A program made the position numbers and the translations under genes. A DNA stretch of 64,000 nt. It comes from Geomonas subterranea (GTDB lineage: Bacteria > Desulfobacterota > Desulfuromonadia > Geobacterales > Geobacteraceae). This document shows positions 42,955-60,337 of the stretch, in pieces. Each line of letters begins with the position of its first letter. Position 1 is the first letter of the stretch. The notes beneath the pieces are model-generated. The model saw only the letters and a list, made by a program, of their open reading frames with translations, did not search any database and was not told the DNA's origin. The stretch spans positions 1,364,001-1,428,000 of the forward strand of contig NZ_CP077683.1 of NCBI RefSeq assembly GCF_019063845.1, written 5' to 3'.

Positions 42955-43015
42955 GCGCCGCAGACCGGATGTGCCGATGCATCCTTGATGCAGCGCCGCA
43001 TCCGGTCTGCGGCGC
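42955..43015. repeat. 17-bp perfect inverted repeat after the ThiF-like gene
   Basis: GCGCCGCAGACCGGATG (42955-42971) and its exact reverse complement (42999-43015), with 27 bp between. It could end thiF-like transcription, although no T-tract follows. It contains the palindromic activator sites described at 42968. Confidence 0.75.
42968..43002. promoter_or_regulatory. Tandem pair of GATGC-N6-GCATC activator sites (AOR operon, distal)
   Basis: GATGT-N6-GCATC at 42968-42983 (one mismatch) and GATGC-N6-GCATC at 42987-43002 (perfect), 19 bp start to start. They lie about 320-355 bp upstream of the sigma54 promoter at 43324. Confidence 0.65.
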
Positions 43016-43131
43016 CACAGCACTTCATTCGACGGCGCATGTCGACCGAATTCCCTCTGAAAACCCACGCCGTGAGCGGCGGGACTTCCATCCTGCCGCC
43101 CCCCCGGCCTCCCATGCCGCCGTGCGGGCAG

Positions 43132-43147
43132 GATGCGCGTCTGCATC
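43132..43147. promoter_or_regulatory. GATGC-N6-GCATC activator site (AOR operon, proximal)
   Basis: Perfect site, about 180 bp upstream of the sigma54 promoter, a normal enhancer distance. A degraded half-match (CATGC-N6-GCGGG) lies 19 bp upstream at 43113. Confidence 0.65.
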
Positions 43148-43323
43148 ACCCGATTCCGGCAAGGTAAGCGGAGCGGAGGGCGCGCCGTGGGCGCCCAAAC
43201 AGCCGCTCCCCCCCTGACGCCCCTTCCAGGATGGTAAAACGCACGGTCCTACGCCGTGTTACACGCCTAACCACCGGGACCGGGCGCACGCTCCTCCGCC
43301 TATCCTTCAGCGGCGAAGAAGCG

Positions 43324-43339
43324 TGGCACAACCTGTGCT
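43324..43339 (+). promoter_or_regulatory. Sigma54 promoter of the AOR operon
   Basis: TGGCAC-AACCT-GTGCT: GG and GC separated by exactly 10 bp, with a consensus -24 element. The predicted start is near 43349, leaving about 97 nt of leader before the AOR start codon. Confidence 0.8.
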
Positions 43340-43445
43340 ACCAGCAGGGCGCCGACGAAAGGGGCGCAGTCGCACGGATTCAGCTTCGGATCCGACAGCG
43401 CCCCCCCGATGCATCCAATCTTCGAGAGACGAATACGGGGTGAAT

Positions 43446-45215
43446 ATGAATCTTTACATGGGAAAGATGCTGGTGGTAGATCTAAGCGCTGAGTCGGTTA
43501 CGACTGAGCCGTTGCGAGCCGAGTGGCTCCGTGAGTACTGGGGTGCGTGGGGGCTGGCGCTAGCCTACTACACCGATGCAGTCTCGCCCGAGGTCGATCC
43601 CCTCGCGCCGGAAAACGCCGTGGTCATCATGACCGCCCCCCTGTGCGGGACCCTGGTGCCGCTCGCCTCCCGCATGTGCCTGGTCTCCAAGTCGCCGCAC
43701 ACCGGGACCATTTTTGAGTCAAACGTGGGGGGATCCTTCGGCCCCGAGCTGAAGTACGCCGGTTACGACGGCATCATCATCAAGGGACGCGCCAGCTCCC
43801 CCGTCTTCCTGAAGATAGACGATGACCGGGTCAGCATCGAGTGCGCCGAGCACATGGCGGGCCAGGGGATCTTCGAGACCGAGAAACTGATGGAGGCGGC
43901 CATGGGCGCCCACGGCGCCAAGACCCTCGCCATCGGACCGGCCGCCGAGAACCTGATCACCTACAGCATGATCGGCTCCGAGTCCTACCGCCAGTTCGGC
44001 CGCGGCGGGACCGGCGCCCTCTTCGGGAGCAAGAACCTGAAAGGCATCGTCTGCCGCGGCACCGGCGGCGTCCGGGTTGCCGACATGGCCAGGTTCCTGG
44101 AGCGCACCGACCACTACACGAAGAACGACCTCCTTTGCGACGACAACCTCTGGGCCAAGACCGACGGCACCCCCATCCTGGTGGAGGTAACCAACGAAAT
44201 GGGGATCCATCCCACCCGCAACTACACCAAGGGCTTCAACGGCAGGAAAGACCGGCTGAACTCCGACGCCATCCAGGCCGCCAAGCTCGGCAACCGCGCC
44301 TGCGCCTCCTGTCCCATGGCCTGCGGCAAGTTCACCCGCGTCAACTCGGCCGAGATCGAAGGGCCTGAGTACGAGACGCTCTGCCTGGGAGGATCCAACT
44401 GCGAGGTGCACGACCTCGAGGCGGTGATCCGCTTCAACCGCCTGTGCGACGACCTGGGACTCGACACCATGACCTGCGGCAGCACCATAAGCCTCGCCAT
44501 GGAGATGACCGAGAACGGCGTCCACGACTTCAAGCTCCGCTTCGGGCAGGTGGACGAGTACCTCAAGGTCGTCTACGAGATCGCCACCCTCTCCACCGAG
44601 CGCGGCCGCGACCTGGCCAAAGGGGCGAAGCACCTGGCCGCCAAGTACGGCGCGGAAGACCTCAGCATGGAGGTGAAAGGGCTCGAGATGCCCGCCTACG
44701 AGCCGCGCGGCAACTTCGGCATGGGGATCGCCTACGCCACGAGCGAGCGTGGCGCCTGCCACCTGCGCGCGTTCCCCATCTTCGCCACCGATCCGCACGA
44801 CATCGACGCGCTGGTCTCCGACGTGGTCGATGCGCAGAACGCCAACTCGATCAAGTGGTCGCTCGGCTTCTGCGACTTCTGGGGCACGATCAACACGACC
44901 ATCGAGGCGGACCTCATGTCGGCAGGGCTGGGCGAGGCGGTGAGCGCCGAGGAACTGGACCAGGCCGGCGAGCGGATCTGGACCCTGAGCCGGCTCTTCA
45001 ACCTGGCGGCCGGCTTCACGGCGGCGGACGATACGCTGCCCAAGAAGATCATGGAGCGCCCGCTTGAGGCGGGGCGCCACGAAGGGCGCGTTTTCAGCCG
45101 TCCCGACCTCGCCCGGGCCATTCAGTCCTACTACCAGCTGCGCGACTGGAGCGCCAAGGGGATCCCGTCGTCTCGCAAGCTGGCCGCCCTCGGCCTCGAC
45201 AAAAAGACCTTATAG
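43446..45215 (+). CDS. Tungsten aldehyde:ferredoxin oxidoreductase (AOR family), catalytic subunit
   Basis: 589 aa from ATG 43446 (ACGGGG upstream; a GTG two codons earlier is possible). AOR N-terminal features: YWGAWGLALAYYT, TAPLCGTLVPLASRM and NVGGSFGPELKYAGYDGI. The [4Fe-4S] ligands are Cys286, Cys289 and Cys293 (CASCPMAC) with Cys476 in LGFCDFWG. These enzymes bind a tungsten bis-pterin and oxidise aldehydes to acids with ferredoxin-type acceptors. The Fe-S subunit and an aminotransferase follow in the same operon, so aldehydes made by transamination are likely substrates. No FAD subunit gene is present. Confidence 0.93.
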   Translation: MNLYMGKMLVVDLSAESVTTEPLRAEWLREYWGAWGLALAYYTDAVSPEVDPLAPENAVVIMTAPLCGTLVPLASRMCLVSKSPHTGTIFESNVGGSFGPELKYAGYDGIIIKGRASSPVFLKIDDDRVSIECAEHMAGQGIFETEKLMEAAMGAHGAKTLAIGPAAENLITYSMIGSESYRQFGRGGTGALFGSKNLKGIVCRGTGGVRVADMARFLERTDHYTKNDLLCDDNLWAKTDGTPILVEVTNEMGIHPTRNYTKGFNGRKDRLNSDAIQAAKLGNRACASCPMACGKFTRVNSAEIEGPEYETLCLGGSNCEVHDLEAVIRFNRLCDDLGLDTMTCGSTISLAMEMTENGVHDFKLRFGQVDEYLKVVYEIATLSTERGRDLAKGAKHLAAKYGAEDLSMEVKGLEMPAYEPRGNFGMGIAYATSERGACHLRAFPIFATDPHDIDALVSDVVDAQNANSIKWSLGFCDFWGTINTTIEADLMSAGLGEAVSAEELDQAGERIWTLSRLFNLAAGFTAADDTLPKKIMERPLEAGRHEGRVFSRPDLARAIQSYYQLRDWSAKGIPSSRKLAALGLDKKTL

Positions 45216-45226
45216 GAGACCTGACC

Positions 45227-45745
45227 TTGAAAAAAGAACTCTTCGCCAACCCGGACCTCTGCACCGGCTGCAACAGGTGCACCATCGCCTGCTCCGCAAA
45301 GAATGAAGGCGTCTTTCAACCAAGCAAGGCCAGGCTGCGCGTCACCAACTTCCCGCTGCGCGGCTTCTCGGTGCCGAACGTCTGCTTCCAGTGCCCCAAG
45401 GCCAACTGCCTGGAAGCCTGCCCCAACGACGCGATGTTTCGCGGGGCGGACGGGGTGGTCCGCCTGAACCGCGATCTCTGTTCCGGGTGCGGCAACTGCG
45501 TGAACGCCTGCCCCTACGGCATGGTCGAGCAAAACGCCAAGGGGATCCCCTACAAGTGCGACCTGTGTGACGGCGATCCCGCATGCGTCAAGGAGTGCCA
45601 TGCGGAGGCACTGGTGCACGCCGCCGGGGACGCCGCACTGTTCCAGCTCAAGGCGGCGCAGATGAAAACGAGGCCCCAGTCGGGCACACCGCTCGAGAAG
45701 CGGCACAAGGTCGCCCAAACGATAAAAAGAAATTCCAGAGGCTAA
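45227..45745 (+). CDS. Four-cluster ferredoxin subunit of AOR
   Basis: 172 aa starting at TTG 45227 after TAGGAGACC. Sixteen cysteines in four groups (CTGCNRCTIAC; CFQCPKANCLEAC; CSGCGNCVNAC; CDLCDGDPACVKEC) bind four [4Fe-4S] clusters, as in the polyferredoxin partner of AOR-type enzymes and HycB-like proteins. It would carry electrons from the tungsten subunit encoded 11 bp upstream to ferredoxin or another acceptor. Cytoplasmic; no signal peptide. Confidence 0.92.
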   Translation: MKKELFANPDLCTGCNRCTIACSAKNEGVFQPSKARLRVTNFPLRGFSVPNVCFQCPKANCLEACPNDAMFRGADGVVRLNRDLCSGCGNCVNACPYGMVEQNAKGIPYKCDLCDGDPACVKECHAEALVHAAGDAALFQLKAAQMKTRPQSGTPLEKRHKVAQTIKRNSRG

Positions 45746-45818
45746 TCCTGCGGCGCGGAATGCAGTATCAAGCGCTCTACACCAGATGCTTCACCCGAAG
45801 CGACAAGGAGATTCAATA

Positions 45819-47177
45819 ATGATGAGAGATGTAGCGTATGCGAAAAGCGAAGCCCAGAGGATGCTGAACCTGCTCATGACCCCGGAGCACGAGGTTCCTG
45901 CGGCCGAGCGCGAGAAGATCGAGCAGGAGACCGTGGAGAACTTCGTCAACCACATCAACAAGGGGTGGCTCAAGTACAGAAAATCGATGACCGAGGCCGG
46001 CGACTACGCCTCCGTCGAGTGGACCGGACAGGGCTCCATCCTCACCGACACCCGCGGCCGCGAGTTCATCGACATCCTGGGCGGCTTCGGCCTCTACTCA
46101 GCCGGGATCAGGCATCCCAAGATCGTCGCCGCCGCCAAGGCCCAGCTCGACCGCAGCCCCCAGTACAGCCAGGAGATGCTCGACCCGCTGCGCGCCCACC
46201 TGGGCAAGGTGCTCGCCCACCTGCTCCCCGGCGACATCCAGTACGGCTTCTTCATCAACTCCGGCACCGAGGCGGTGGACGGCGCCATGAAGCTCGCCAA
46301 GCTCTACACCGGCAAGGCAGGCTTCATCTCCACCGAGCGCGCCTTCCACGGCAAGACCCTTGGGCCGCTGACCCTCATGGGCAAGGCGATGTACCGCGAG
46401 CCGCTTCTGCCGCTTCTGGGCAACGTGCGCCACGTTCCTTACGGCGACGCCGCGGCGGTCGAGAAGGCAATCGTGTCTGCGCACCAGGTGGGTGACGGCA
46501 TCGCCGCCATGATTGCCGAGCCGATCCAGGGCGAGGCCGGCGCCATCATCCCGCCGGACGATTACTGGCCGAAACTGCGCGAGATCTGCGACAAGTACGG
46601 CGTGCTCCTGATCGCCGACGAGGTGCAGACCGGTCTCGGGCGCACCGGCACCCTCTTCGGGGTGGACCACTGGAACGTGACCCCGGACATCATCTGCCTG
46701 GGCAAGGCCCTGGGGGGGGGCGTCATCCCCTGCTCCGGCTTCTTTGCCAGCAAGAAGGTGTGGGAATGCATGGAGCCGAACCCCTTCATGCACTCCACCA
46801 CCACCGGCGGCAACCCGATCGCCTGCGCCGCGGCTTTGGCCTACATCAACGTGATGCTGGAAGAGGATCTGCCGCGCCAGGCGCGCGAGAAAGGGGAGTA
46901 CATCGTCTCGAAGCTGGAGGGTCTGAAGGCGAAGTACCCGCAGGTCCTGAAAGAAGTGCGCGGCAAGGGGCTCCTGATCGGCATGGACTTCCCGACCGAC
47001 GAGATGGGTTGGCAGGTCGCCTCCGGCATGTTCACCCGCCGCGTGCTGACCGCCGGCACCTTCATAAACGCGAAGAGCATCAGGATCGAGCCCGCCCTGA
47101 CCATCGGCTACGACCTCATCGACGAGATGCTGGTCAGGCTCGAAGACGTCTTCAAGAGCATCGCCGGCAAGGCCTAG
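45819..47177 (+). CDS. Class III aminotransferase, putrescine aminotransferase type (copy 1)
   Basis: About 452 aa from ATG 45819 with AAGGAG 8 nt upstream. It resembles E. coli putrescine aminotransferase in its N-terminal arm (NHINKGWLKYRKSMTEAGDY), in NSGTEAVDGAMKLAK, in the PLP aspartate of LLIADEVQTGLGRTG and in the PLP lysine of CLGKALGGGVIP. The reaction would be diamine (or omega-amino acid) plus 2-oxoglutarate to aminoaldehyde plus glutamate. As the third gene of the AOR operon, it would hand its aldehyde product to AOR. A second copy at 53771 is about 99% identical in DNA. Confidence 0.88.
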   Translation: MMRDVAYAKSEAQRMLNLLMTPEHEVPAAEREKIEQETVENFVNHINKGWLKYRKSMTEAGDYASVEWTGQGSILTDTRGREFIDILGGFGLYSAGIRHPKIVAAAKAQLDRSPQYSQEMLDPLRAHLGKVLAHLLPGDIQYGFFINSGTEAVDGAMKLAKLYTGKAGFISTERAFHGKTLGPLTLMGKAMYREPLLPLLGNVRHVPYGDAAAVEKAIVSAHQVGDGIAAMIAEPIQGEAGAIIPPDDYWPKLREICDKYGVLLIADEVQTGLGRTGTLFGVDHWNVTPDIICLGKALGGGVIPCSGFFASKKVWECMEPNPFMHSTTTGGNPIACAAALAYINVMLEEDLPRQAREKGEYIVSKLEGLKAKYPQVLKEVRGKGLLIGMDFPTDEMGWQVASGMFTRRVLTAGTFINAKSIRIEPALTIGYDLIDEMLVRLEDVFKSIAGKA

Positions 47178-47288
47178 CCGATCCCTTGGGGGGACGAGGC
47201 TCCAGCGTCCTCGTCTCCCCGAAGATTTCTCGAACAACCGGTGCAGCCGGCGCTGTAGCCGACGCAACGATGCGCTGCCACTCGCGTC

Positions 47289-47321: not shown

Positions 47322-47342
47322 GCATTCCATGACAAAACAATG

Positions 47343-48579: not shown

Positions 48580-49881
48580 CTACCCCCTCAACTCCTGCAG
48601 GGACTCCTCCATGATGGACATGCCGCGCTCGAGCTCGGCGTCGGTGATTACCAGCGGCATCAGGGTCCTGATCACGTTGCCGTGGTTGCCGCAGGAAAGA
48701 ACCACCAGCCCTTTCTGGTAGCAGAGGTTGACCAGCTTTTTCGCCTCCGCCGCTGCCGGCTCCTTGCTCTCCCGGTCGCGCACCAGCTCCAGCGCCAGCA
48801 TCGGCCCCTTGCCGCGCACCTCGCCGATGATCTCGTGGCGCTTTTGCATCTCGTCGAAGCGGGCGCGCATCTTGACGCCGAGTTCCTCGGCGCGCGCAAG
48901 CAGGCCGTCCTCGGTGAATATCTCCAGTACCGCCCGCGCCGCGGCCAACGCGATGGGATTCCCTCCGTAGGTCCCTCCGAGCCCACCTACGTGCGGCGCG
49001 CTCATTACCTCTGACTTCCCGGTTACGGCGGAGATCGGGAGTCCCCCTCCCAGGCTCTTGGCGGTGGTGACCAGGTCGGGGACCACATCCCAGTGATCGA
49101 TGGCAAACAGCTTGCCGGTGCGCCCCATACCGGTCTGCACCTCGTCGATGATCAGCATGATCCCGTGTTTGTCGCAGATCTCGCGCAGCCTGGGGAAGTA
49201 TTCGGGCGGCGGCGTGACGAAGCCACCCTCCCCCTGGATCGGCTCAGCGATGACGGCGGCAGTCTTCTCTGCGGCGACGTGGCTTATGAAGAATTCCTCC
49301 AGGTGCTCGGCACAAGCCGTGTTGCAACTGGGGTGCTTGAGCCCGAACGGGCAGCGGTAGCAGTAAGCGAAGGGCATCCGGTAGATTTCCGGCGCGAACG
49401 GGCCGAAACCTAGTTTGTACGGCTTCACCTTGCTGGTGAGGGTCATGGTGAGGTTGGTCCGTCCGTGAAAGCCGTTCTCGAAGGCGATCACCGAGGGGCG
49501 TCCGGTGGCGTGGCGCGCGATCTTGATGGCGTTCTCCACCGCCTCCGCGCCGGAGTTGAGGAAGATGGTCATCTTGTCCCCGTCGCCCGGCGCCAGCCCG
49601 TTCAACCTCGCCGCGAGGTCGATGTACAGGTCGTAGGGAACGATGTGGAAGCAGGTGTGCAGGAACTTTTCGGCTTGGTCCTTCACGGCGGCGACGACCT
49701 TCGGATGGCAGTGCCCGACGTTGGCGACGCCGATCCCACCGGCGAAGTCGATCAGCTCGCGACCTTCCGTATCCACGATAATGGCACCGCGGGCCTCCTT
49801 GACGAAGGACGGGGACAAGATGCTCACACCGGGCGGTACATGCTTGTTGCGCAACGCTTGCGACACTTCTGTGGTTCTCAT
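48580..49881 (-). CDS. gabT: 4-aminobutyrate aminotransferase
   Basis: 433 aa from ATG 49881 (AAAGGAG upstream). Class III features: IDFAGGIGVANVGHCHPKVV, NSGAEAVENAIKIAR, IIDEVQTGMGRTGK and PLP lysine in TTAKSLGGGLPIS. It matches the GabT/PuuE branch, converting GABA (or 5-aminovalerate, beta-alanine-like omega-amino acids) to a semialdehyde. It would take the GABA made by the putrescine-type aminotransferase plus AOR, producing succinate semialdehyde, another possible AOR substrate. It is divergent from the sigma54 activator, with paired activator sites in between. Confidence 0.9.
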   Translation of the reverse strand: MRTTEVSQALRNKHVPPGVSILSPSFVKEARGAIIVDTEGRELIDFAGGIGVANVGHCHPKVVAAVKDQAEKFLHTCFHIVPYDLYIDLAARLNGLAPGDGDKMTIFLNSGAEAVENAIKIARHATGRPSVIAFENGFHGRTNLTMTLTSKVKPYKLGFGPFAPEIYRMPFAYCYRCPFGLKHPSCNTACAEHLEEFFISHVAAEKTAAVIAEPIQGEGGFVTPPPEYFPRLREICDKHGIMLIIDEVQTGMGRTGKLFAIDHWDVVPDLVTTAKSLGGGLPISAVTGKSEVMSAPHVGGLGGTYGGNPIALAAARAVLEIFTEDGLLARAEELGVKMRARFDEMQKRHEIIGEVRGKGPMLALELVRDRESKEPAAAEAKKLVNLCYQKGLVVLSCGNHGNVIRTLMPLVITDAELERGMSIMEESLQELRG

Positions 49882-50079
49882 CGATTCTGGCTCCTTTGAC
49901 TGAAGTAGATTGCATGCGCGCCCGGTGCATGCGGCCGGGCACCAGGTAACCTGCGTTATCAAGGAACGTACCAAACATCTGCCGCCTCTTTTCACCCCTG
50001 CTTTTCCCCTTTTTCCCCCACCTTGCGTCGCATGGCCCATCCCCTCCCCTGCCAACTCTCCCATTAGCCGGCACCGGGT

Positions 50080-50114
50080 GATGCCCCGCTGCATCCCGGA
50101 TGCGAATCCGCATC
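50080..50114. promoter_or_regulatory. Tandem pair of perfect GATGC-N6-GCATC activator sites
   Basis: Sites at 50080-50095 and 50099-50114, 19 bp start to start, both perfect. They lie about 200 bp upstream of gabT and 270 bp upstream of the activator gene. Confidence 0.65.
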
Positions 50115-50319
50115 ACCCCCGGCATCACGGTGAGCATCCTCTCAGGCTGCCCCAGAGGTTCAAGGGAGGAAAACCGGGGGCTCGACGAACGGGCCGACTC
50201 CCCCTCCAGCGTGGTCCGACGCAGCAAGTGTGCACTATTCTCACCCGGAGCCTTCCCCGTATACGGAATAGGCGCGGATCGTGAATATATCGGGGCGCGG
50301 CATTCCTTCTTGCATTTTT

Positions 50320-50335
50320 GATGCAGCTATGCATT
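50320..50335. promoter_or_regulatory. GATGC-N6-GCATT site just upstream of the activator gene
   Basis: One mismatch to the palindrome. It ends 45 bp before the activator ATG (50381), a position suited to autorepression. Confidence 0.55.
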
Positions 50336-50380: not shown

Positions 50381-52162
50381 ATGACCATCATGGCCGATTT
50401 CGTGGGCGAAAACGCCCCGACCCCCGAGCAGACCCACCAGGACGCTTTTAATGCAGCGCAGTACAACGCCATGGGCGACGGCATCATCTCGGTAGACACA
50501 TCCGGAACCGTGCTCCTGTCGGACCGGGTGAGCCGGGTGAGCCTCGACATCTACCCCGGGAGTTCGCTGAGCGGTCAGTACCCGTCGCTTTGGGGCAAGG
50601 TGGTCGAAACCATGCGCGACCGCAGGCCGCGCTTCGAGCTGTCGGTCCAGAGGGGCGAAACGAGCTTTTTGGTTACGGTGAGCCCGGTCATGGTCGACGA
50701 CGAGGTCTCCGGCGCCATCTGCGTCTTCGTGGAGAACACCGATCTCGAAATCATGACCAGGCAGTTGCGCTCGTTCCGGGAACTGACCAAGGAACTGGCG
50801 GCCATCATCGACTCCTCTTCCGAAGGGCTCTGGGTCTTCGACGGCTACGGCGTGGTGCTGCGCATCAACCCGGCCGCCGAGCGCAACAACCGGGTCAAGA
50901 AGGAAGTGGTGGTCGGCCTGACCGCGCGCGAACTGATCGAGCAGGGGTACATGGAGCGCTCGCCTGCCCTGGAGGTGCTCGGGTCGAAGTGCGTGGTCAA
51001 CATGCTGGTCAACGAGGGGAACAGGAAGCTGATCGTCACCGGCACGCCGGTTTTCGGCGACGAGGGGGGCATCATCAGGGTGGTGGTCTCGGAGCGGGAC
51101 ATCACCGAGATCGACAAGCTGCAGCGAGAGCTGGAGGACCAGGAGGCCATCAAGGGGCAGTTCTGGCACCACATGCTGGAGCAGCAGCAGGCCGAACTCG
51201 CCTCCCAGACCATCATCGCCAAGAGCCCGCGCATGATCACCGCCCTGCGCCAGGCGGTCAAGGTGAGCTCCGCCGACTCGACCGTGCTGATCCATGGCGA
51301 ATCCGGCGTCGGCAAGGGGCTCTTTGCCGACCTGATCCACAAGAATTCGAGCCGCAGCGCCAAGCCCATCATCAAGCTCAACTGCGGCGCCATCCCGGAA
51401 TCCCTCATCGAGTCCGAACTCTTCGGGCACGAGCGCGGTGCCTTCACCGGCGCCCAGACGGCCAAGCCCGGCTACCTCGAACTCGCAGACAACGGCATCC
51501 TCTTCCTGGACGAGATCGCCGAACTCCCGCTGGCGTCCCAGGTGAAGCTTTTGCGCTTTCTCGAGGACGGGCGGGTGACCAGGCTCGGCGGCACCACCGG
51601 TCGGACCGTCGACGTGCGCATCATCGCCGCCACCCACCGGGACCTGGAGAAGATGGTGGTGGAAAAGACCTTCCGCCTCGACCTCTACTACCGCCTCAAC
51701 GTGATCCCGCTCTACATCCCCGCGCTGCGCGAACGCCAGGAATGCCTGTTGCCGCTCATCCGCCACTACATCGACTATTTCAGCCAGAAGGTCGGCAAGC
51801 AGAAGCGGCTGGCGCGCGCCGCCCTCGACGCCCTGCTCGCCTACGGCTATCCCGGCAACGTGCGGGAACTGATGAACCTGTGCGAGCGGCTGGTGGTCAT
51901 GTCCGAGACCGAGGTGATCGACCTGCAGGACCTCCCCAAGCAGCTTTTCGGCAACGTCGAGGAAAAGCCCCTGTCGCAGTCCGAGCAGACCCTGCCGGTG
52001 TGGCCCGGGGACATGACACTGGAGCAGATCCTGGAAAGCGTGGAACGCTCCCTGTTGAGCGACGCCATGAAGGAGCACGGCAACCAGTACCGGATCGCGG
52101 AGTCACTGGGGATCAACCAGTCCACCGTGGCCCGCAAGCTCAAGAAGTACGGCATTTCCTAG
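50381..52162 (+). CDS. TyrR-like sigma54-dependent activator (PAS-PAS-AAA+-HTH)
   Basis: 593 aa from ATG 50381 (AGGAGA upstream). Two PAS-like sensor segments (about 25-135 and 145-265), a linker coiled coil, then AAA+ with Walker A GESGVGKG (about 304-311), the sigma54-contact motif GAFTGA (about 353-358) and Walker B LFLDEIAEL. The C-terminal HTH HGNQYRIAESLGINQSTVAR is of the TyrR/Fis type. There is no receiver domain, so it probably senses a small molecule. Its recognition helix type normally binds palindromes with a 6-bp spacer, matching the GATGC-N6-GCATC sites around it. Confidence 0.93.
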   Translation: MTIMADFVGENAPTPEQTHQDAFNAAQYNAMGDGIISVDTSGTVLLSDRVSRVSLDIYPGSSLSGQYPSLWGKVVETMRDRRPRFELSVQRGETSFLVTVSPVMVDDEVSGAICVFVENTDLEIMTRQLRSFRELTKELAAIIDSSSEGLWVFDGYGVVLRINPAAERNNRVKKEVVVGLTARELIEQGYMERSPALEVLGSKCVVNMLVNEGNRKLIVTGTPVFGDEGGIIRVVVSERDITEIDKLQRELEDQEAIKGQFWHHMLEQQQAELASQTIIAKSPRMITALRQAVKVSSADSTVLIHGESGVGKGLFADLIHKNSSRSAKPIIKLNCGAIPESLIESELFGHERGAFTGAQTAKPGYLELADNGILFLDEIAELPLASQVKLLRFLEDGRVTRLGGTTGRTVDVRIIAATHRDLEKMVVEKTFRLDLYYRLNVIPLYIPALRERQECLLPLIRHYIDYFSQKVGKQKRLARAALDALLAYGYPGNVRELMNLCERLVVMSETEVIDLQDLPKQLFGNVEEKPLSQSEQTLPVWPGDMTLEQILESVERSLLSDAMKEHGNQYRIAESLGINQSTVARKLKKYGIS

Positions 52163-52192: not shown

Positions 52193-52227
52193 GATGCCTC
52201 GCCGCATCCATGATTCCAATATGCATC
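52193..52227. promoter_or_regulatory. Tandem pair of GATGC-N6-GCATC activator sites (porin gene)
   Basis: GATGC-N6-GCATC at 52193-52208 (perfect) and GATTC-N6-GCATC at 52212-52227 (one mismatch), 19 bp start to start, about 165-200 bp upstream of the sigma54 promoter at 52391. Confidence 0.65.
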
Positions 52228-52390: not shown

Positions 52391-52406
52391 TGGCACACCT
52401 CGTGCT
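52391..52406 (+). promoter_or_regulatory. Sigma54 promoter of the porin gene
   Basis: TGGCAC-ACCTC-GTGCT with exact GG-N10-GC spacing. Predicted start near 52416, about 80 nt before the ATG at 52495. Confidence 0.8.
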
Positions 52407-52494: not shown

Positions 52495-53295
52495 ATGAGC
52501 AAAAGCGGTTTATTGGCAGCAGCGTTGGTACTCATGTTAGGCTCGGCGGTAATGGCGGCGGACGGCGATCCGCACGCGAAGGGGGAGGCGCCGGCCCTTC
52601 CGCCCGGGCCCAAGGTGAACGGCGACGTGTATATCGGGGTCATGAACAAATACCTGTTCCGCGGCAACCAGCTGAACGCCAACAGCTCCTTCGTCACCCA
52701 GGGGGGGATGGATCTTACCTACAACTCCTTCACCTTCAGCTACTGGTTCAACAACCAGAACCGCGCCAACGGGTATGCCAAGGCGAAGACCACCGAGAAC
52801 GACGCCATCATCAACTACGCGCTCCCCGAGCTTTTGAAGGACGTCACCATCAACGTGGGTGCCCAGTACTTCTCGCTCGACGCAGCCGAGGATACCGCCG
52901 AGTTCTACGCGCGGGCGACCTACAACACCCTGCTCAACCCGACGCTTGGGATCTACTGGGACTTCCTGGAGGCGCGCAACGACGGTCTCTTCTATACCGC
53001 CTCGGTCTCCCAACCCGTCCCCATTATCCAGGACAAGCTGACCCTTAACCTGGGGGCACTCGTCTCCTACAACCAGCACAACCCCAGTGCCGCCTACACC
53101 GACCTAGATTCCCGCAGCGGTATCTACAGCGACTGGCACAACTACGAGCTTTCCGCCACCCTCGACTACAAGGTGTTGGACAACGTGACCGTCACCCCCT
53201 CCTACACCTTTTCCGACAACCTGAGCAGCAACGCCAAAGACGTCGGCATCGGCGCGAAGAACTGCTACGGCATCAAGGCCATGCTCTCCTTCTAA
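52495..53295 (+). CDS. Outer-membrane porin-like protein (TorF/TIGR02001-like)
   Basis: 266 aa from ATG 52495 with AAAGGAGGA upstream. Signal peptide SGLLAAALVLMLGSAVMAA, then a beta-barrel-like protein: VYIGVMNKYLFRGNQ near the mature N-terminus matches the TorF-type putative porins, strands alternate, and the end is SF preceded by GIKAML. It probably admits small solutes to the periplasm. The sigma54 promoter and activator sites upstream place it with the amine catabolism genes, suggesting uptake of their substrate. Confidence 0.75.
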   Translation: MSKSGLLAAALVLMLGSAVMAADGDPHAKGEAPALPPGPKVNGDVYIGVMNKYLFRGNQLNANSSFVTQGGMDLTYNSFTFSYWFNNQNRANGYAKAKTTENDAIINYALPELLKDVTINVGAQYFSLDAAEDTAEFYARATYNTLLNPTLGIYWDFLEARNDGLFYTASVSQPVPIIQDKLTLNLGALVSYNQHNPSAAYTDLDSRSGIYSDWHNYELSATLDYKVLDNVTVTPSYTFSDNLSSNAKDVGIGAKNCYGIKAMLSF

Positions 53296-53330
53296 GCCGC
53301 TCCCCAATCCCGCAGGGGGTACTCCCCCCC

Positions 53331-53442
53331 CTGCCCTCACCTATCCCTGCCCTCACCTATCCCTGCCCTCACCTATCCCTGCCCTCACCTATCCCTGCCC
53401 TCACCTATCCCTGCCCTCACCTATCCCTGCCCTCACCTATCC
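53331..53442. repeat. Minisatellite: seven perfect copies of a 16-bp unit
   Basis: CTGCCCTCACCTATCC repeated seven times without a mismatch, starting at 53331, 53347, 53363, 53379, 53395, 53411 and 53427. It lies between the porin stop codon and the activator sites of the next gene. Confidence 0.97.
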
Positions 53443-53456
53443 CTGTCGACACCCCG

Positions 53457-53491
53457 GATGCAAACCCGCAGCTAAGATGCGGGAATGCATC
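53457..53491. promoter_or_regulatory. Tandem pair of GATGC-N6-GCATC activator sites (second aminotransferase)
   Basis: GATGC-N6-GCAGC at 53457-53472 (one mismatch) and GATGC-N6-GCATC at 53476-53491 (perfect), 19 bp start to start, 210-245 bp upstream of the sigma54 promoter at 53703. Confidence 0.65.
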
Positions 53492-53702: not shown

Positions 53703-53718
53703 TGGCATGTCACGTGCA
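53703..53718 (+). promoter_or_regulatory. Sigma54 promoter of the second aminotransferase gene
   Basis: TGGCAT-GTCAC-GTGCA with exact GG-N10-GC spacing; predicted start near 53728. Confidence 0.78.
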
Positions 53719-53770: not shown

Positions 53771-55129
53771 ATGATGAGAGACGTAGCGTACGCACAAAGC
53801 GAAGCCCAGAGGATGCTGAACCTGCTCCTGACCCCGGAGCACGAGGTTCCTGCGGCCGAGCGCGAGAAGATCGAGCAGGAGACCGTGGAGAATTTCGTCA
53901 ACCACATCAACAAGGGGTGGCTCAAGTACAGAAAATCGATGACCGAGGCCGGCGACTACGCCTCCGTCGAGTGGACCGGACAGGGCTCCATCCTCACCGA
54001 CACCCGCGGCCGCGAGTTCATCGACATCCTGGGCGGCTTCGGCCTCTACTCCGCCGGGATCAGGCATCCCAAGATCGTCGCCGCCGCTAAGGCCCAGCTC
54101 GACCGCAGCCCCCAGTACAGCCAGGAGATGCTCGACCCGCTGCGCGCCCACCTGGGCAAGGTGCTCGCCCACCTGCTCCCCGGCGACATCCAGTACGGCT
54201 TCTTCATCAACTCCGGCACCGAGGCGGTGGACGGCGCCATGAAGCTCGCCAAGCTCTACACCGGCAAGGCAGGCTTCATCTCCACCGAGCGCGCCTTCCA
54301 CGGCAAGACCCTTGGGCCGCTGACCCTCATGGGCAAGGCGATGTACCGCGAGCCGCTTCTGCCGCTTCTGGGCAACGTGCGCCACGTTCCTTACGGCGAC
54401 GCCGCGGCGGTCGAGAGGGCAATCGTGTCGGCACACCAGGTGGGTGACGGCATCGCCGCCATGATTGCCGAGCCGATCCAGGGCGAGGCCGGCGCCATCA
54501 TCCCGCCGGACGATTACTGGCCGAAACTGCGCGAGATCTGCGACAAGTACGGCGTGCTCCTGATCGCCGACGAGGTGCAGACCGGTCTCGGGCGCACCGG
54601 CACCCTCTTCGGGGTGGACCACTGGAACGTGACCCCGGACATCATCTGCCTGGGCAAGGCCCTGGGGGGCGGCGTCATCCCCTGCTCCGGCTTCTTTGCC
54701 AGCAAGAAGGTGTGGGAATGCATGGAGCCGAACCCCTTCATGCACTCCACCACCACCGGCGGCAACCCGATCGCCTGCGCCGCGGCTTTGGCCTACATCA
54801 ACGTGATGCTGGAAGAGGATCTGCCGCGCCAGGCGCGCGAGAAAGGGGAGTACATCGTCTCGAAGCTGGAGGGTCTGAAGGCGAAGTACCCGCAGGTCCT
54901 GAAAGAAGTGCGCGGCAAGGGGCTCCTGATCGGCATGGATTTCCCGACCGACGAGATGGGTTGGCAGGTCGCCTCCGGCATGTTCACCCGCCGCGTCCTG
55001 ACCGCCGGCACCTTCATCAACGCGAAGAGCATCAGGATCGAGCCCGCCCTGACCATCGGCTACGACCTCATCGACGAGATGCTGGTCAGGCTCGAAGACG
55101 TCTTCAAGAGCATCGCCAAGGAGCAATGA
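53771..55129 (+). CDS. Class III aminotransferase, putrescine aminotransferase type (copy 2)
   Basis: About 452 aa; ATG at 53771 (a GTG one codon earlier also possible) after AAAGGAG. By eye it differs from copy 1 (45819) by about fifteen substitutions over 1.35 kb, several in the first 60 nt, plus a different last few codons. Protein changes seen include AKSE to AQSE, a Met to Leu, and EKAIV to ERAIV. Active-site features are the same. Unlike copy 1 it has its own sigma54 promoter and activator sites and is followed by a terminator and the permease gene. Recent duplication or gene conversion is likely. Confidence 0.9.
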   Translation: MMRDVAYAQSEAQRMLNLLLTPEHEVPAAEREKIEQETVENFVNHINKGWLKYRKSMTEAGDYASVEWTGQGSILTDTRGREFIDILGGFGLYSAGIRHPKIVAAAKAQLDRSPQYSQEMLDPLRAHLGKVLAHLLPGDIQYGFFINSGTEAVDGAMKLAKLYTGKAGFISTERAFHGKTLGPLTLMGKAMYREPLLPLLGNVRHVPYGDAAAVERAIVSAHQVGDGIAAMIAEPIQGEAGAIIPPDDYWPKLREICDKYGVLLIADEVQTGLGRTGTLFGVDHWNVTPDIICLGKALGGGVIPCSGFFASKKVWECMEPNPFMHSTTTGGNPIACAAALAYINVMLEEDLPRQAREKGEYIVSKLEGLKAKYPQVLKEVRGKGLLIGMDFPTDEMGWQVASGMFTRRVLTAGTFINAKSIRIEPALTIGYDLIDEMLVRLEDVFKSIAKEQ

Positions 55130-55221: not shown

Positions 55222-56733
55222 ATGACAGATCAAGTTAAAGAAGTGCATCTGTTGGAAACTGGATTTGAATCGTTCGACGACGGCGGCCTTAAACGCGGGC
55301 TCAAGGACCGCCACGTCATGATGATCGCCCTGGGGGGCATCATCGGCTCTGCTTTCTTCCTCGGTACCGGTTCCATCGTCAAGGACGTCGGCCCCTCCGC
55401 CTTCATCACCTACGCCTTTGGCGGCCTCATCGTCTACCTCGTCATGATCGCCCTGGGCGAGCTTGCCGTCGCCATCCCCATCTCGGGCTCCTTCGTCACC
55501 TACGCCTCCGAATTCATCTCCCCCTCCTGGGCGGCCGGGGTCGGTTGGAGCTACGTCTTCAACTGGATGGCCTACATACCCGCGGAATGTATCGCGGGGG
55601 GCATCATCATGAAGACCTTCGTGCCCGGCACCAGCGAATGGATGTGGGCCGTCCTCTTCGGCATCATCATCACGGTGGTCAACATCTCCCATGTCGAGGC
55701 CTTCGGCGAGATCGAGTTCTGGCTCTCCATCGTAAAGGTCATGGCCATCGTCGTCTTCTGCGTCGTCGCCGTCCTCATCTACTTCAACGTGATCCCGAAC
55801 CAGCACCCGGCCGGCATGGGCACAACCTACCTCACCGGCAACGGCGGCATATTCCCCAACGGCGGCTTCGTGCTGCTGACCACCATGGTCATGCTGCTCG
55901 TCAACTTCCAGGGGGTCGAGATCATCGGGCTCACCGCGGGTGAGGCGAAAGATCCCAGCAAGACCATCCCCACCGCCGTGCGCAGCATCACCATCAGGGT
56001 CATCATGCTGTTCATGGTCCCGGTATTCCTGCTGGTCACCATCTTCCCGTGGGCCAATGCCGGCGTGGAGGGGGGCTCCGTCTTCGCTGCTGCCCTTGAG
56101 CAGTACGGCCTGCATTGGGCGGCCGGCCTCTTCAGTTTCGTCGTCCTCACCGCGGCCCTTTCGTGCGCCAATTCCGGCCTCTACTCCACGGTCCGCGTCA
56201 CCTGGGCCATGGCGCGCGAAGGGATGGCGCCGAAGTTCCTGGGCGCCCTGAACAAGCACCAGGTTCCGGGCAACGCGGCCCTCTTCGTCATCGCCGGCGT
56301 ATGGTTCTTCCTGGCGGGCTCCTACTTCTTCGCAGCCTCCAAGGTATTCGTCGCCCTTCTCTCCATCTCCGGCTTCACCGGAACCATCGCCTGGATCTCC
56401 ATCATCTGGTCCCAGATGAACTTCCGCAAGCGCCTGGTGGCCAATGGCTACAGCACCAAGGATCTCAAGTACGTGGCGCCCGGCTTCCCCTACCTCGCGC
56501 ACCTGGGCATCTGGGGCATGGTCGGCTGCCTGGCCTTTACCGCCTTCAACGAGAGCCTGCGCATCGGCTTCTACGCCGGGGTTCCCCTGCTGATCCTGCC
56601 GATCGTCATCCACAAGATGCGCAAGGTCGACCACGAGTTGCTGGCCAAGCTGCACAGCAAGGTACGTTTCGACGACCTCTTCAAGCCGCGCAACGCCTGC
56701 GCCGTAGACTACGCCGCCGCCGAGACCGAATAA
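55222..56733 (+). CDS. Amino acid permease (APC superfamily, AAT type)
   Basis: 503 aa with about 12 membrane segments. The start GGLKRGLKDRHVMMIALGGI and GSAFFLGTG is the AAT-family signature; EISGSF-like AIPISGSFVTYASEFISPSW and AGEAKDPSKTIPTA follow. Such permeases import amino acids, GABA or related amines with protons. GGAG lies before the ATG at 55222. Position between the two halves of the catabolic cluster suggests that it imports the substrate. Transcription may come from read-through of the terminator upstream or from an unidentified promoter in the 92-bp gap. Confidence 0.92.
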   Translation: MTDQVKEVHLLETGFESFDDGGLKRGLKDRHVMMIALGGIIGSAFFLGTGSIVKDVGPSAFITYAFGGLIVYLVMIALGELAVAIPISGSFVTYASEFISPSWAAGVGWSYVFNWMAYIPAECIAGGIIMKTFVPGTSEWMWAVLFGIIITVVNISHVEAFGEIEFWLSIVKVMAIVVFCVVAVLIYFNVIPNQHPAGMGTTYLTGNGGIFPNGGFVLLTTMVMLLVNFQGVEIIGLTAGEAKDPSKTIPTAVRSITIRVIMLFMVPVFLLVTIFPWANAGVEGGSVFAAALEQYGLHWAAGLFSFVVLTAALSCANSGLYSTVRVTWAMAREGMAPKFLGALNKHQVPGNAALFVIAGVWFFLAGSYFFAASKVFVALLSISGFTGTIAWISIIWSQMNFRKRLVANGYSTKDLKYVAPGFPYLAHLGIWGMVGCLAFTAFNESLRIGFYAGVPLLILPIVIHKMRKVDHELLAKLHSKVRFDDLFKPRNACAVDYAAAETE

Positions 56734-56762
56734 CGCTGCGCAACTAACAGCGGCAGCGAAAA

Positions 56763-56794
56763 AAAAGGGGCCTCCCAAACGAGAGGCCCCTTTT
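56763..56794 (+). terminator. Rho-independent terminator after the permease
   Basis: GGGGCCTC pairs with GAGGCCCC, flanked by an A-run and T4. Confidence 0.88.
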
Positions 56795-56864
56795 CCATGC
56801 TCGCGCCAGCAATCCAGCGGACCGGCGGATGTGCTTCCCCGCAGTAACAGCAATGGACATACGT

Positions 56865-56900
56865 CCCCCCCCTTTGCGAAGGGGGGACAGGGGGGATTTG
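56865..56900. repeat. Second copy of the CCCCCTTTGCGAAGGGGGGACA repeat
   Basis: Matches the element at 47289; it lies just before the activator sites of the glutamate dehydrogenase gene. Confidence 0.6.
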
Positions 56901-56916
56901 CTGCGTCACATCTAGG

Positions 56917-56952
56917 GATGCCGCTCCGCATCAGGAAATGCAACCGGGCATG
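56917..56952. promoter_or_regulatory. GATGC-N6-GCATC activator sites (glutamate dehydrogenase operon, distal)
   Basis: Perfect site at 56917-56932 and a weaker AATGC-N6-GCATG at 56937-56952, 20 bp start to start; about 270-300 bp upstream of the sigma54 promoter. Confidence 0.6.
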
Positions 56953-57053
56953 AATCAGCCAAAAACAAAACTGACGTGTTTACGGCAACTTGAAAAACAG
57001 CACGGACCGATACATCCAGCTTCACCCTCAGCAAACCGCACAGGATGCTCCAG

Positions 57054-57069
57054 CATGCATGACCGCATC
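57054..57069. promoter_or_regulatory. CATGC-N6-GCATC activator site (glutamate dehydrogenase operon, proximal)
   Basis: One mismatch to the palindrome, about 150 bp upstream of the sigma54 promoter at 57220. Confidence 0.55.
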
Positions 57070-57219
57070 ACGTTCAGAACGCGCCACGTGCAACCCGGCT
57101 GCCGCATCCCAATTGCCGCGCCCAGGTGCAACGATCAAAGGCACACAACTTCGGCGACTTAGCGAACGCCACGGTATCACAACATCACGGCCTTCTCTCC
57201 CCTCTTTCACCAGCCAAGA

Positions 57220-57235
57220 TGGCACACCTTATGCT
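57220..57235 (+). promoter_or_regulatory. Sigma54 promoter of the glutamate dehydrogenase operon
   Basis: TGGCAC-ACCTT-ATGCT with exact GG-N10-GC spacing. Predicted start near 57245, about 117 nt before the start codon. Confidence 0.8.
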
Positions 57236-57361
57236 GTTTACACAAACGGCCACCCGGGTCCCGGTATCTTCAGCCCGGATCCAGGTGCGCGCAACGCCAG
57301 GCATCAAGATGGCAGAGCTGCCATTTCATCCCGGCCACTGGCCGTACTAGGGGAGTTACCG

Positions 57362-60337
57362 ATGGATATTGTTGATGACCGCATCTCGGGAAAGGTACAG
57401 CGGGTCATGAAGCAGAGCCGCTCTCTCGCCGACCGGAACCTCGCATGGATTCACTCGCGAATCCATCCCTACTTCTTCATCACCATGCAGGAGGAGATCG
57501 ACGCGATCGCCATCCTTGCCAGCGGGCTGCACAACCTGTCCCGCAACCGCCGCATGATCCTCGCCGACCGCGACCGGATGCTGATCCAGGCGGTGCTCAA
57601 CCGCCCCGGTTCGCTCTACGAGACGCTGCGCACCCTCAAGGAACGCGAGATCTCCTACGCCCATTTCGCCGTCTCCAATGGCCCGCTCCCCGACTCGGAG
57701 CACCACCTCGAGCTGCAGCGCTTCGAATTCGACAGAAAGAGCCCGCAGGAGGTGAGCGCAAGCAAGGACAAGGCTCCCACCGCCATCAGGCGCCGCATCG
57801 CGGCAGCCCTCAAGCGCGACTATCCCGGCTTCGACCACAAGAGGCTCGACTACCTCCTCAACATACTCTGGATCAACAACCAGGACTACGTGCGCATCTC
57901 TCCTGCCACGCGCGTGGCGCGCACGCTCACGCTGTTCCAGCACACCAGGAACAACGGCGGGGTCTACCTCGACGCCGAGCCGGCAAACACCGGCGAAACC
58001 AGGCTCATGTTCGCGGTCGGGAACCCGCCCCAGCGCGACTTCCTGCAGCAGATCATGGAGGTGTTCAACCGCCTCGAGGTGAGCGTGAAGAGGGCCTACT
58101 GCCTCACCATCAGCAACGAGATCCACCCCTATTTCCTCGGCAACTTCTACGTGACCACACGCGACGGCTCCGAGGTCACCCGGGGGTCGGAGCTCTTTCT
58201 GCGGCTGCAGAGCGAGCTCTACAACACCCAGATTCTCTCCACCGCCTCACCCTCCTACGCCGAGCTCGTGGTCAAGGGGGTGATGAGCGGCGAGGACGCG
58301 CTCCTGGTGAACGCCATGATCGGCTTTTGCCACACCAACCTGGCGCACACCCATCCGGACAGCTTCGACCTGGAAGGGATCATGCGCGCCTTCCACAACC
58401 ACCCCGACATCGCCCAGCAACTGGTGAAGCTGTTCCGCGCCCGCTTCGATCCGGCCGTATCCGACCGCGAGGCGCAGTACGCCGCGGTGCTGGAGGAGAC
58501 CACGCGGGTCGTGGACAGCTACAACACCGGGCACGGCTTTTTGGACGAGTTCCGGCGCAGCATCTTCCGCTGCGCGCTCCTCTTCATCCGCTACACGCTG
58601 AAGACCAACTTCTACGTGCTGGAGAAAAGCGCCCTCGCCTTCCGCCTGGACCCCGGTTACATGTCAGAGCTGGAGCCTAAGTTCTCCGCCGACCTCCCCC
58701 CCGAGCGCCCGTTCCGCATCACCTACTTCCACGCCCGCTACGGGCTCGGCTACCACATAGGCTTCTCGGACATCGCCCGCGGCGGCTGGCGCACGCTGAT
58801 CACCAACGGCCGCGACGACTACGTGACCTGCGCCAACTCCCTCTTCCGCGAGAACTACGTGCTCGCTCACACCCAGCACCTGAAGAACAAGGACATCTAC
58901 GAGGGGGGGTCCAAGATGGTGGTCGTGCTGGACGCGGCGGGAATCCATGACCGCGACCTGGTCACCCAGCGCCTGTACAAGCTGCAGTACACGCTGATCA
59001 ACGCCTTCCTCGACATCTTCGTCACCGATAAGGGAAAAGCCAAGGACCCGCGCGTGGTCGACTACTACGGCGAGGACGAGCCCATCGAACTCGGTCCGGA
59101 CGAGAACATGCACGACGCCATGGTCGAGTTGGTAGCTGCCCAGTCGGTGCGTCGCGGCTACCTTCTCGGCATCGGGATCATGTCCAGCAAGAAGGTGGGG
59201 ATCAATCACAAGGAGTACGGCGTCACCTCGGCGGGGGTGATCCGGTTCGCCGAGATCACCATGGCCGAACTCGGGATCGACATGCACCGCGACCCGTTCT
59301 CGGTGAAGTTCACCGGCGGCCCCAACGGCGACGTGGCCGGCAACTCCATGCGCCTTCTGCTGGAGCGCTGTCCCAAGGTGGCGATCCGGCTCATCATCGA
59401 CGGCACCGGCGCGCTCTACGACCCGGCCGGGGCCGACCGCGACGCCCTGGGGAGGGTCGTGCTGCAGTCCGACATCGATGCCTTCGACGCCGGCGCCCTG
59501 CATCACGGCGGCTTCATCCTCTACCGCAACCGGACCCGGCGCGAGGGGATGAAGGAGCTCTACTGCAAGGTCGTGCGGGACCAGGATGGGCTCAAGGAGT
59601 TCTGGATCTCCAACGACGACTTCTACCGCGAATACAACTCGCTGGTCTTCACCGTGGCGGCGGACCTCTTCATCCCCGCCGGCGGCAGGCCCGAAACCGT
59701 CCGCGAACACGACTGCGGCCGCTTCTTCGCCGAGGACGGCACCCCGCTCACCCGCGTCATCGTGGAGGGGGCCAACTCCTTCATCACCCCCAAGGCGAGG
59801 GTCGAGCTGCAGCGGCGCGGCATCGTTTTGATGCGCGACGCCTCCGCCAACAAGTGCGGGGTCATCTCCTCATCCTACGAGATCATCGCCAACCTGCTCC
59901 TGTCCGAGAAGGAGTTCCTGGAACAGAAGGAGCCCTACGTCCGCGACGTGATCCGGATCCTGAACAAGAGGGCCGAGGACGAGGCTCGGCTCATCTTCCG
60001 CCGCCACCGGGAGGCGGGGGGCGCTCAGCTCTTCACCGAGATCTCGGACGCCATCAGCACGGAGATCAACGCCCAGTACGCGACGCTGTTCAACTTCTTC
60101 CAGAAGCACCCGCAGTTGTGCGACCGGCCGCTGTACCGAAAGGCGATTCTCGCTCACCTGCCCGGCATGCTTGCCGACAAACCGGGGTACCGGATGCGGA
60201 CCAAGGGACTGCCCCCCAAGTACAAGTTCGCCATCCTCTCCAGCGAGATCGCCTCATCCATGGTCTACCGCGGCGAAAAGGAGAGCGACGGCTACCGGGA
60301 ACTCCTGGAGGCCCACCTGAAACGGCTGTCGGCCTGA
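57362..60337 (+). CDS. Large NAD-type glutamate dehydrogenase
   Basis: 991 aa from ATG 57362 (GGGGAG upstream). The frame stays open further left, but that stretch holds the promoter and activator sites, so it is leader. The N-terminal half is the regulatory part of large GDHs. The catalytic core shows GFSDIARGGWRTLI, the lysine motif YEGGSKMVVVLDA, NAD-domain FTGGPNGDVAGNSM, and VEGANSFITPKARVEL followed by DASANKCGVISSS. It deaminates glutamate to 2-oxoglutarate, regenerating the amino acceptor for the aminotransferases and making NADH and ammonium. It is first in an operon with a second AOR-family gene and a class III aminotransferase. Confidence 0.9.
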   Translation: MDIVDDRISGKVQRVMKQSRSLADRNLAWIHSRIHPYFFITMQEEIDAIAILASGLHNLSRNRRMILADRDRMLIQAVLNRPGSLYETLRTLKEREISYAHFAVSNGPLPDSEHHLELQRFEFDRKSPQEVSASKDKAPTAIRRRIAAALKRDYPGFDHKRLDYLLNILWINNQDYVRISPATRVARTLTLFQHTRNNGGVYLDAEPANTGETRLMFAVGNPPQRDFLQQIMEVFNRLEVSVKRAYCLTISNEIHPYFLGNFYVTTRDGSEVTRGSELFLRLQSELYNTQILSTASPSYAELVVKGVMSGEDALLVNAMIGFCHTNLAHTHPDSFDLEGIMRAFHNHPDIAQQLVKLFRARFDPAVSDREAQYAAVLEETTRVVDSYNTGHGFLDEFRRSIFRCALLFIRYTLKTNFYVLEKSALAFRLDPGYMSELEPKFSADLPPERPFRITYFHARYGLGYHIGFSDIARGGWRTLITNGRDDYVTCANSLFRENYVLAHTQHLKNKDIYEGGSKMVVVLDAAGIHDRDLVTQRLYKLQYTLINAFLDIFVTDKGKAKDPRVVDYYGEDEPIELGPDENMHDAMVELVAAQSVRRGYLLGIGIMSSKKVGINHKEYGVTSAGVIRFAEITMAELGIDMHRDPFSVKFTGGPNGDVAGNSMRLLLERCPKVAIRLIIDGTGALYDPAGADRDALGRVVLQSDIDAFDAGALHHGGFILYRNRTRREGMKELYCKVVRDQDGLKEFWISNDDFYREYNSLVFTVAADLFIPAGGRPETVREHDCGRFFAEDGTPLTRVIVEGANSFITPKARVELQRRGIVLMRDASANKCGVISSSYEIIANLLLSEKEFLEQKEPYVRDVIRILNKRAEDEARLIFRRHREAGGAQLFTEISDAISTEINAQYATLFNFFQKHPQLCDRPLYRKAILAHLPGMLADKPGYRMRTKGLPPKYKFAILSSEIASSMVYRGEKESDGYRELLEAHLKRLSA

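Follow-up and report, generated by a model that had tools for sequence, protein, structure and literature searches.

The described systems closest to the one reported here are TyrR of Escherichia coli, PrdR (the proline reductase regulator of the Clostridia), AorR of the Clostridiales, the nucleoid protein Fis and the sigma54 regulome of Desulfovibrio vulgaris. They are compared here with a putative sigma54 regulon of the soil bacterium Geomonas subterranea, carried in a 64,000-nucleotide stretch of contig NZ_CP077683.1 (positions 1,364,001 to 1,428,000; the window, whose coordinates are used below). Its elements are GATGC-N6-GCATC palindromes 5' of genes for aldehyde ferredoxin oxidoreductase (AOR), aminotransferases and glutamate dehydrogenase (GDH), a region referred to as the island, and the regulatory gene at 50381 in their midst. 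Judged from its sequence, the 50381 protein is a sigma54 enhancer-binding protein: it combines a PAS-containing sensor part, an AAA+ domain and a C-terminal HTH_50/Fis-type helix-turn-helix (HTH), its GAFTGA loop (amino acids 353 to 358) is invariant in the family alignment, and -24/-12 promoters and an rpoN gene (TIGR02395, 438.8 bits; cut-off, 277.35) were found in the genome.

A first-pass annotation of this DNA had described the protein as a TyrR-like activator, which holds for the HTH and not for the rest. The GAFTGA loop and the TyrR-type HTH that it reported are both present (HTH_50, 43.3 bits against a cut-off of 27). TyrR shares with the 50381 protein this type of HTH, the 6-bp palindrome spacer, which had also been pointed out, and self-regulation, reported for TyrR and predicted for the activator. 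By alignment it has Arg at HTH residue 2, and PMC4374768 describes an essential G-N14-C in the TyrR box, corresponding to bases 1 and 16 of the operator frame used below; Arg with a base-1 G would fit rule A (see below). However, the GAFTGA loop falls in a gap of the E. coli TyrR alignment, and TyrR is thus no typical sigma54 activator. Its half-site is GTAAA instead of GATGC, differing at bases 2 to 5, in concordance with its different HTH residues 11 to 13 (S-H-T). The box TGTAAA-N6-TTTACA was not found at the targets, and GATGC-N6-GCATC agrees with it only in the spacer and base 1. Identity between the two proteins is 36%, over the AAA+ domain and HTH only. Identification as TyrR was rejected on the absence of the loop from TyrR and on the NF008085 score (247.5 bits; cut-off, 576).

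PrdR, likewise a sigma54 activator of amino acid catabolism, provides the best NCBIfam model; this identification was also dropped, since the 50381 protein scored 388.2 bits against a cut-off of 795, and PMC6615313 gives the PrdR sites as TGT-N10-12-ACA. AorR is similar in exerting sigma54 control over an aldehyde oxidoreductase gene, aor; it differs in its motif, listed in the same source as TGT-N10-12-ACA, and was set apart by description, not by sequence. Fis has the same type of HTH, is the best solved-structure match to the C-terminal part of the activator (E 3.2e-06) and, in the crystals described in PMC4784862, has residue 2 adjoining the outermost base, whereas it is a nucleoid protein with a loose sequence preference. 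For D. vulgaris, PMC4641369 describes enhancer motifs obtained by comparative genomics, mostly one to four operons per regulator, and motif similarity that did not always parallel that of the DNA-binding domains; here, by contrast, two HTH positions would predict two operator bases. Residue-base correlations have been described for GntR (PMC4494728), IclR (PMC8222616) and LacI (PMC4052901). Our literature search, for which subscription papers were mostly out of reach, found neither such a code for sigma54 activators nor a report of this regulon or operator family. Sigma54 activators with paired palindromes are already known; what might be unexpected is the HTH code.

The reading that we favour, with a probability of about 0.92, is that 50381 dimers bind GATGC-N6-GCATC, usually two together at a 19-bp offset, and that the AAA+ ring contacts sigma54 polymerase, presumably by looping and in response to an inducer, at TGGCAY-N5-NTGCW promoters 166 to 356 bp downstream and opens them. 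The regulon would comprise the AOR1-ferredoxin-aminotransferase genes, the porin gene, aminotransferase 2 with the permease, and GDH with AOR2 behind it, with gabT and the activator's own gene as probable further targets. As to specificity, Tyr570 (HTH residue 2) would read base 1 and Asn579 and Ser581 (residues 11 and 13) base 4 of the half-site.

Palindromes and promoters of the island

All seven perfect palindromes reported in the first-pass annotation (42987, 43132, 50080, 50099, 52193, 53476 and 56917) were recovered at their positions, together with the five one-mismatch partners (42968, 50320, 52212, 53457 and 57054) and the four pairs with an exact 19-bp start-to-start offset. Other sites had been missed. 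Thus, four more one-mismatch sites lie elsewhere in the window (21724, 25054, 48532 and 48856), a half-site, TTGCAT, precedes the 50320 site in the 19-bp register, and 56917 and 56937, offset by 20 bp, make up a fifth pair, of a kind that recurs at gdh in four other Geomonas genomes. The 50320 site lies within a block of 32 bases that five Geomonas species share without change, and a similar block was found in five distant orthologues, 59 to 115 bp ahead of the point where the protein match starts.

The genome (4,991,523 bp) contains 32 perfect palindromes, 25 of them outside the island (4.93 Mb), which amounts to approximately 0.32 per 64 kb; the figure of 0.06 per 64 kb given earlier for chance occurrence was therefore too low. 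At the outside rate, 0.073 sites would be expected in the 14.4 kb of the island, compared with the seven observed (Poisson P ∼2e-12). Of the outside sites, 24 fall inside open reading frames of at least 93 codons (which may not all be genes), and the remaining one touches a gene end between two convergent genes. With up to three mismatches allowed, the genome holds five copies of the tandem motif, of which four are in the island; a reversed control pattern gave no matches. Chance was thus rejected, as was an even genomic spread of the motif, named earlier as a refutation. That the palindromes play no regulatory part and are instead structural repeats or hairpins (terminators or mobile-element ends), as inverted repeats in intergenic DNA might be, is hardly credible in view of the fixed N6 gap, the fixed 19-bp pairing, the location 5' of sigma54 promoters, the retention of the sites in five species while the flanks diverge, and the protein-operator covariation described below.

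The four sigma54 promoters proposed previously were also found again when the window was scored with weights of our own (maximum, 21.7). Three of them are the top scores of the window (20.5), and the one at 53703 (19.5) is level with a site inside the AOR gene. They lie downstream of the palindromes at measured distances of 166 to 356 bp, the enhancer spacing having been given earlier as 150 to 350 bp. A sigma54-like element before gabT, missed in the first-pass annotation, lies in a block identical across five Geomonas species and is a candidate fifth promoter.

A second palindrome, GTATAC (often CGTATAC), is present in these upstream regions at 50259, 52380, 53595 and 53623, four of the six copies in the window being inside the island. 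It was also found at matching places in other Geomonas genomes and near the paralogue at 3414292 (see below), and may serve a second regulator, which we take to be perhaps of the GntR type.

HTH residues that covary with operator bases

The HTH residues were numbered from Q569 as residue 1, which we take to follow the classical 20-residue HTH; Y570 is then residue 2, N579 residue 11, Q580 residue 12 and S581 residue 13. The training set comprised 89 relatives in 54 clusters at 85% identity, and sites were sought within 700 bp on either side of each gene in the frame NATNC-N6-GNATN, with A2, T3 and C5 required. The hold-out set was taken from 277 genomes of the class, members at least 85% identical to the first set being dropped, and contained 55 proteins in 43 clusters. 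The rules were frozen on the 33 site-bearing training clusters before the hold-out, in which 32 clusters carried sites. Total palindrome counts were discarded as a test of the family gap, as all gaps from 1 to 12 exceeded the shuffled sequences, probably owing to hairpins and terminators, and the arms were then fixed for the gap control. With [GAT]AT[GT]C arms, 31 of the 54 clusters had a site at gap 6, and no more than three at any other gap from 0 to 15. The register GCAT-N5-ATGC, which the 19-bp pair creates, was found next to the gene in 45 of the 97 clusters, compared with 2 to 31 clusters at the other distances up to 15, the next being 13 (31 clusters) and 2 (25 clusters).

A perfect palindrome in the frame adjoins the gene in 65 of the 93 clusters of both sets (85% identity). 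Base 1 followed residue 2 throughout (rule A): clusters with Tyr or Arg had a purine (17/17), and those with any other residue had T or C (48/48; 47 T and one C). In the hold-out, the five Tyr clusters, there being none with Arg, all had a purine and the 27 others all had T. At the site level, counting redundant proteins, a purine came first at 36 of the 37 sites next to Tyr/Arg proteins and at none of the 98 next to the others. Rule B, frozen as P13 with T4 and S/A13 with G4, accounted for base 4 in 59 of 65 clusters (29 of 32 in the hold-out). Read post hoc by residue 11, Ser went with T in 11 of 11 clusters and Asn or Asp with G in 48 of 50. All four operator combinations (GATGC, TATGC, GATTC/AATTC and TATTC) were seen. 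In the tree of the AAA+ domain, from which the HTH was left out, the residue-2 class changes about six times; a chance CATTC site beside L106 (first of cluster c5) adds one spurious base-1 change to the tree table.

These data suggest a modular code, in which Tyr or Arg at residue 2 would specify a purine and other residues T at base 1, while N/D-Q-S/A would specify G, S-Q-P/A T and T-Q-A mostly A at base 4. In lambda repressor-like contacts, residues 1 and 12 face base 2 and residue 13 faces base 4. In our alignment, Thr75 of Fis corresponds to residue 2, Asn84 to residue 11 and Arg85 to residue 12. According to PMC4784862, Arg85 reads a guanine and, together with Thr75, touches the next base outwards, the thymine at position 8, while Asn84 contacts a purine at position 4 and disfavours thymine. 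These contacts match the geometry of base 1, and the register of base 4 only approximately.

The covariation ties the protein family to this class of site and strongly supports the earlier proposal that the 50381 protein is the binder, base 1 having been predicted in 32 of 32 new clusters. It also bears on the view that another regulator occupies the palindromes and the 50381 protein acts elsewhere. The sites were assigned through position and covariation, and GTATAC, conserved in several of the same upstream regions, makes a second regulator likely; nevertheless, the operator variants follow each member's own HTH in all the new clusters, and a different protein would have no cause to track those residues. 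We consider that view extremely unlikely.

Paralogues, conservation and points against

Three paralogues of this genome adjoin GATGC, TATGC and TATTC palindromes, respectively. Besides the 50381 gene, these are 952655 (genome coordinate; Val2, NQS helix), with TATGC-N6-GCATA 152 bp behind its end at 954091, and 3414292 (SQP helix), with TATTC-N6-GAATA 34 bp behind its end at 3416007. The TATGC and TATTC palindromes occur only twice each in the 5-Mb genome, and the chance of such a neighbour is approximately 0.001 per paralogue. Both paralogues are 59 to 64% identical to the activator with the same HTH type, and the genome holds two related gabT/AOR/GDH loci, so either of them might also control the island promoters. 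The palindromes beside them, however, deviate at base 1 and in one case also at base 4, and the stretches examined around them contain no perfect GATGC palindrome, which makes this cross-control very unlikely.

For the family as a whole, we consider it fairly probable, from these comparisons, that an entire family of Desulfobacterota sigma54 activators uses a single frame, NATNC-N6-GNATN, with a modular code that insulates paralogues and provides three channels in this genome. Duplicated activators would then be kept apart by changes of between one and three residues in the protein and of one or two base pairs in each half-site, operators could be deduced solely from the protein sequence, and activators could be re-aimed by point substitutions. 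The rule linking two HTH positions with two operator bases is falsifiable, drawing on 65 clusters of natural bacterial enhancer-binding protein (bEBP) variants, and the avoidance of cross-talk by duplicated regulators becomes directly testable with few substitutions.

The check suggested earlier, whether the motif tracks orthologues of the 50381 protein, came out in favour in 141 genomes of the order, where the tandem (up to two mismatches) occurs in 14. It is present in each of the 10 genomes whose activator is 70% or more identical, compared with 4 of 131 others (G103, G109, G096 and G024); within the genus (19 genomes) the figures are 5 of 5 with and 0 of 14 without the orthologue. G103 and G109 hold 57% identical relatives with Arg at HTH residue 2, for which the code predicts a purine at base 1. 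The AOR1, porin, aminotransferase 2 and GDH genes of the four other Geomonas genomes all (16/16) have sites with no more than one mismatch on their 5' side, and 15 of these 16 genes also have a strong sigma54 promoter. In five more distant genomes, where the operator has the looser form RATGC-N6-GCATY and some genes lie at contig ends, AOR1 has both sites and a strong promoter (5/5) and GDH a strong promoter (5/5). For all 10 orthologues, the 700 bp 5' of the activator gene contain an exact RATGC-N6-GCATY, which none of the 33 more distant relatives has there; of these 33, L101, L102 and L146 (all Arg2) have one downstream.

Several observations weigh against the regulon and the code. Rule B mispredicted base 4 in six of the 65 clusters, three of them among the 33 training clusters and three among the 32 of the hold-out (L206, L227 and L243); one exception, L176 (cluster c72), has internal stops, and its "upstream" site may sit inside a broken gene. 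A perfect site was not found in 28 of 93 clusters, some flanks being cut by contig ends; among those lacking a perfect site in the frame is a Gln2/His2-SQPTV group with eight hold-out proteins (L248, L249, L254, L255, L257, L259, L261 and L262), which would have either another operator or targets elsewhere. The AAA+ tree was weakly supported, with stars on only 16 of its 62 inner branches; the clusters therefore do not count as independent trials, and an independent-pairs test had only one pair on starred branches, with no formal significance. In Fis, losing the methyl of the position-8 thymine left affinity unchanged in the account of PMC4784862. G096 carries a GATGC tandem without a close activator orthologue, and G024 one two-mismatch tandem match without an orthologue of at least 70% identity. 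Gain or loss of the island as a block could by itself make motif and regulator co-occur. A strong sigma54 promoter was not seen at aminotransferase 2 in G030, only one of the five distant genomes has a site with at most one mismatch near GDH, and no consensus sigma54 promoter was found for gabT, the candidate being non-consensus at -12.

The tandem of G096 (one mismatch, C29:100977, L137) lies beside an eamA homologue.

Genes of the predicted regulon

The features are listed in Table 1. The earlier claim that the activator co-ordinates the whole island agrees with the sites and promoters for AOR1, porin, aminotransferase/permease and GDH, whereas for gabT control would be only likely. An EamA transporter and a third class III aminotransferase were also identified. 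From the family assignments of these genes, oxidation of putrescine and 4-aminobutyrate (GABA), or of diamines more generally, is predicted: the aminotransferases would convert the amine to an aldehyde, AOR would convert the aldehyde to the acid, GabT would convert GABA to succinate semialdehyde, and GDH would regenerate 2-oxoglutarate. The Geomonas island thereby gains a candidate regulator, operators, promoters and a testable pathway. Since both putrescine aminotransferase copies score above the NF008570 cut-off and below that of TIGR03372 (494 and 492.9 bits; cut-off, 658.65), their substrate is uncertain and may be another amine. The porin-like protein had no Pfam match at E 0.001, a weak Porin_2 match (E 0.0097) being under its cut-off.

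Table 1. Genes, predicted promoters and palindromic sites of the window
Feature	Coordinates	Strand	Support or location
Sigma54-dependent activator (bEBP)	50381..52162	+	PF00158 E 5.6e-68; PF18024 HTH_50 E 2.9e-11; PAS_4 amino acids 144-243
Aldehyde ferredoxin oxidoreductase AOR1, predicted target	43446..45215	+	PF01314 E 1.4e-108; PF02730 E 4.6e-70
4Fe-4S ferredoxin-like AOR1 partner	45227..45745	+	PF13247 and other Fer4 matches
Putrescine aminotransferase copy 1	45819..47177	+	NF008570 647.5 bits (cut-off 612); TIGR03372 494 (cut-off 658.65)
4-Aminobutyrate aminotransferase gabT, divergent, probable target	48580..49884	-	TIGR00700 575.2 bits (cut-off 506.65)
Outer-membrane porin-like protein, predicted target	52495..53295	+	Name inferred from sequence
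Putrescine aminotransferase copy 2, predicted target	53771..55129	+	NF008570 648.5 bits (cut-off 612)
Amino-acid permease, APC family	55222..56733	+	PF00324 E 3.1e-95; GABAperm 303.8 bits, below cut-off 678.1
NAD-type GDH, 991 amino acids, predicted target	57362..60337	+	PF05088 E 1.5e-23; PF00208 E 8e-22
Second AOR-family protein (AOR2), 3' of gdh, possibly same operon	60390..62240	+	PF01314 E 1.1e-45
Predicted sigma54 promoter TGGCACAACCTGTGCT of aor1-fdx-pat1	43324..43339	+	Score 20.5; counterpart in four other Geomonas
Putative fifth sigma54 promoter TGGTACGTTCCTTGAT, gabT	49958..49973	-	-12 GA, not GC; score 16.7
Predicted sigma54 promoter TGGCACACCTCGTGCT of porin-like gene	52391..52406	+	Promoter score
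Predicted sigma54 promoter TGGCATGTCACGTGCA, before aminotransferase copy 2	53703..53718	+	Score 19.5
Predicted sigma54 promoter TGGCACACCTTATGCT of gdh	57220..57235	+	Promoter score
19-bp palindrome pair (one mismatch + perfect)	42968..43002	.	5' of AOR promoter
Perfect palindrome	43132..43147	.	5' of AOR promoter
Perfect 19-bp tandem, two palindromes	50080..50114	.	Between gabT and activator gene
Probable autoregulatory site GATGCAGCTATGCATT	50320..50335	.	61 bp before activator start; identical in five Geomonas
19-bp palindrome pair	52193..52227	.	5' of porin gene
19-bp palindrome pair	53457..53491	.	5' of aminotransferase copy 2
Perfect palindrome + two-mismatch partner (56937), 20-bp offset	56917..56952	.	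5' of gdh
One-mismatch palindrome	57054..57069	.	5' of gdh

The two putrescine aminotransferase genes are 98.2% identical to each other in DNA sequence. In four other Geomonas genomes the two copies of a genome are 97.1 to 99.9% identical, whereas between species the copies diverge by 2.7 to 10.4%. On these identities, the pattern is one of apparent concerted evolution (gene conversion) across some 8 kb. For L084 this difference is marginal (97.8% within the genome and 97.3% to the nearest relative).

An array of 16-bp units (CCTGCCCTCACCTATC) at approximately 53330 to 53445 lies directly 5' of the paired sites of aminotransferase 2. For their part, three identical 16-mers at 40356, 40558 and 40760, spaced by exactly 202 bp, point to a tandem repeat of 202-bp units.

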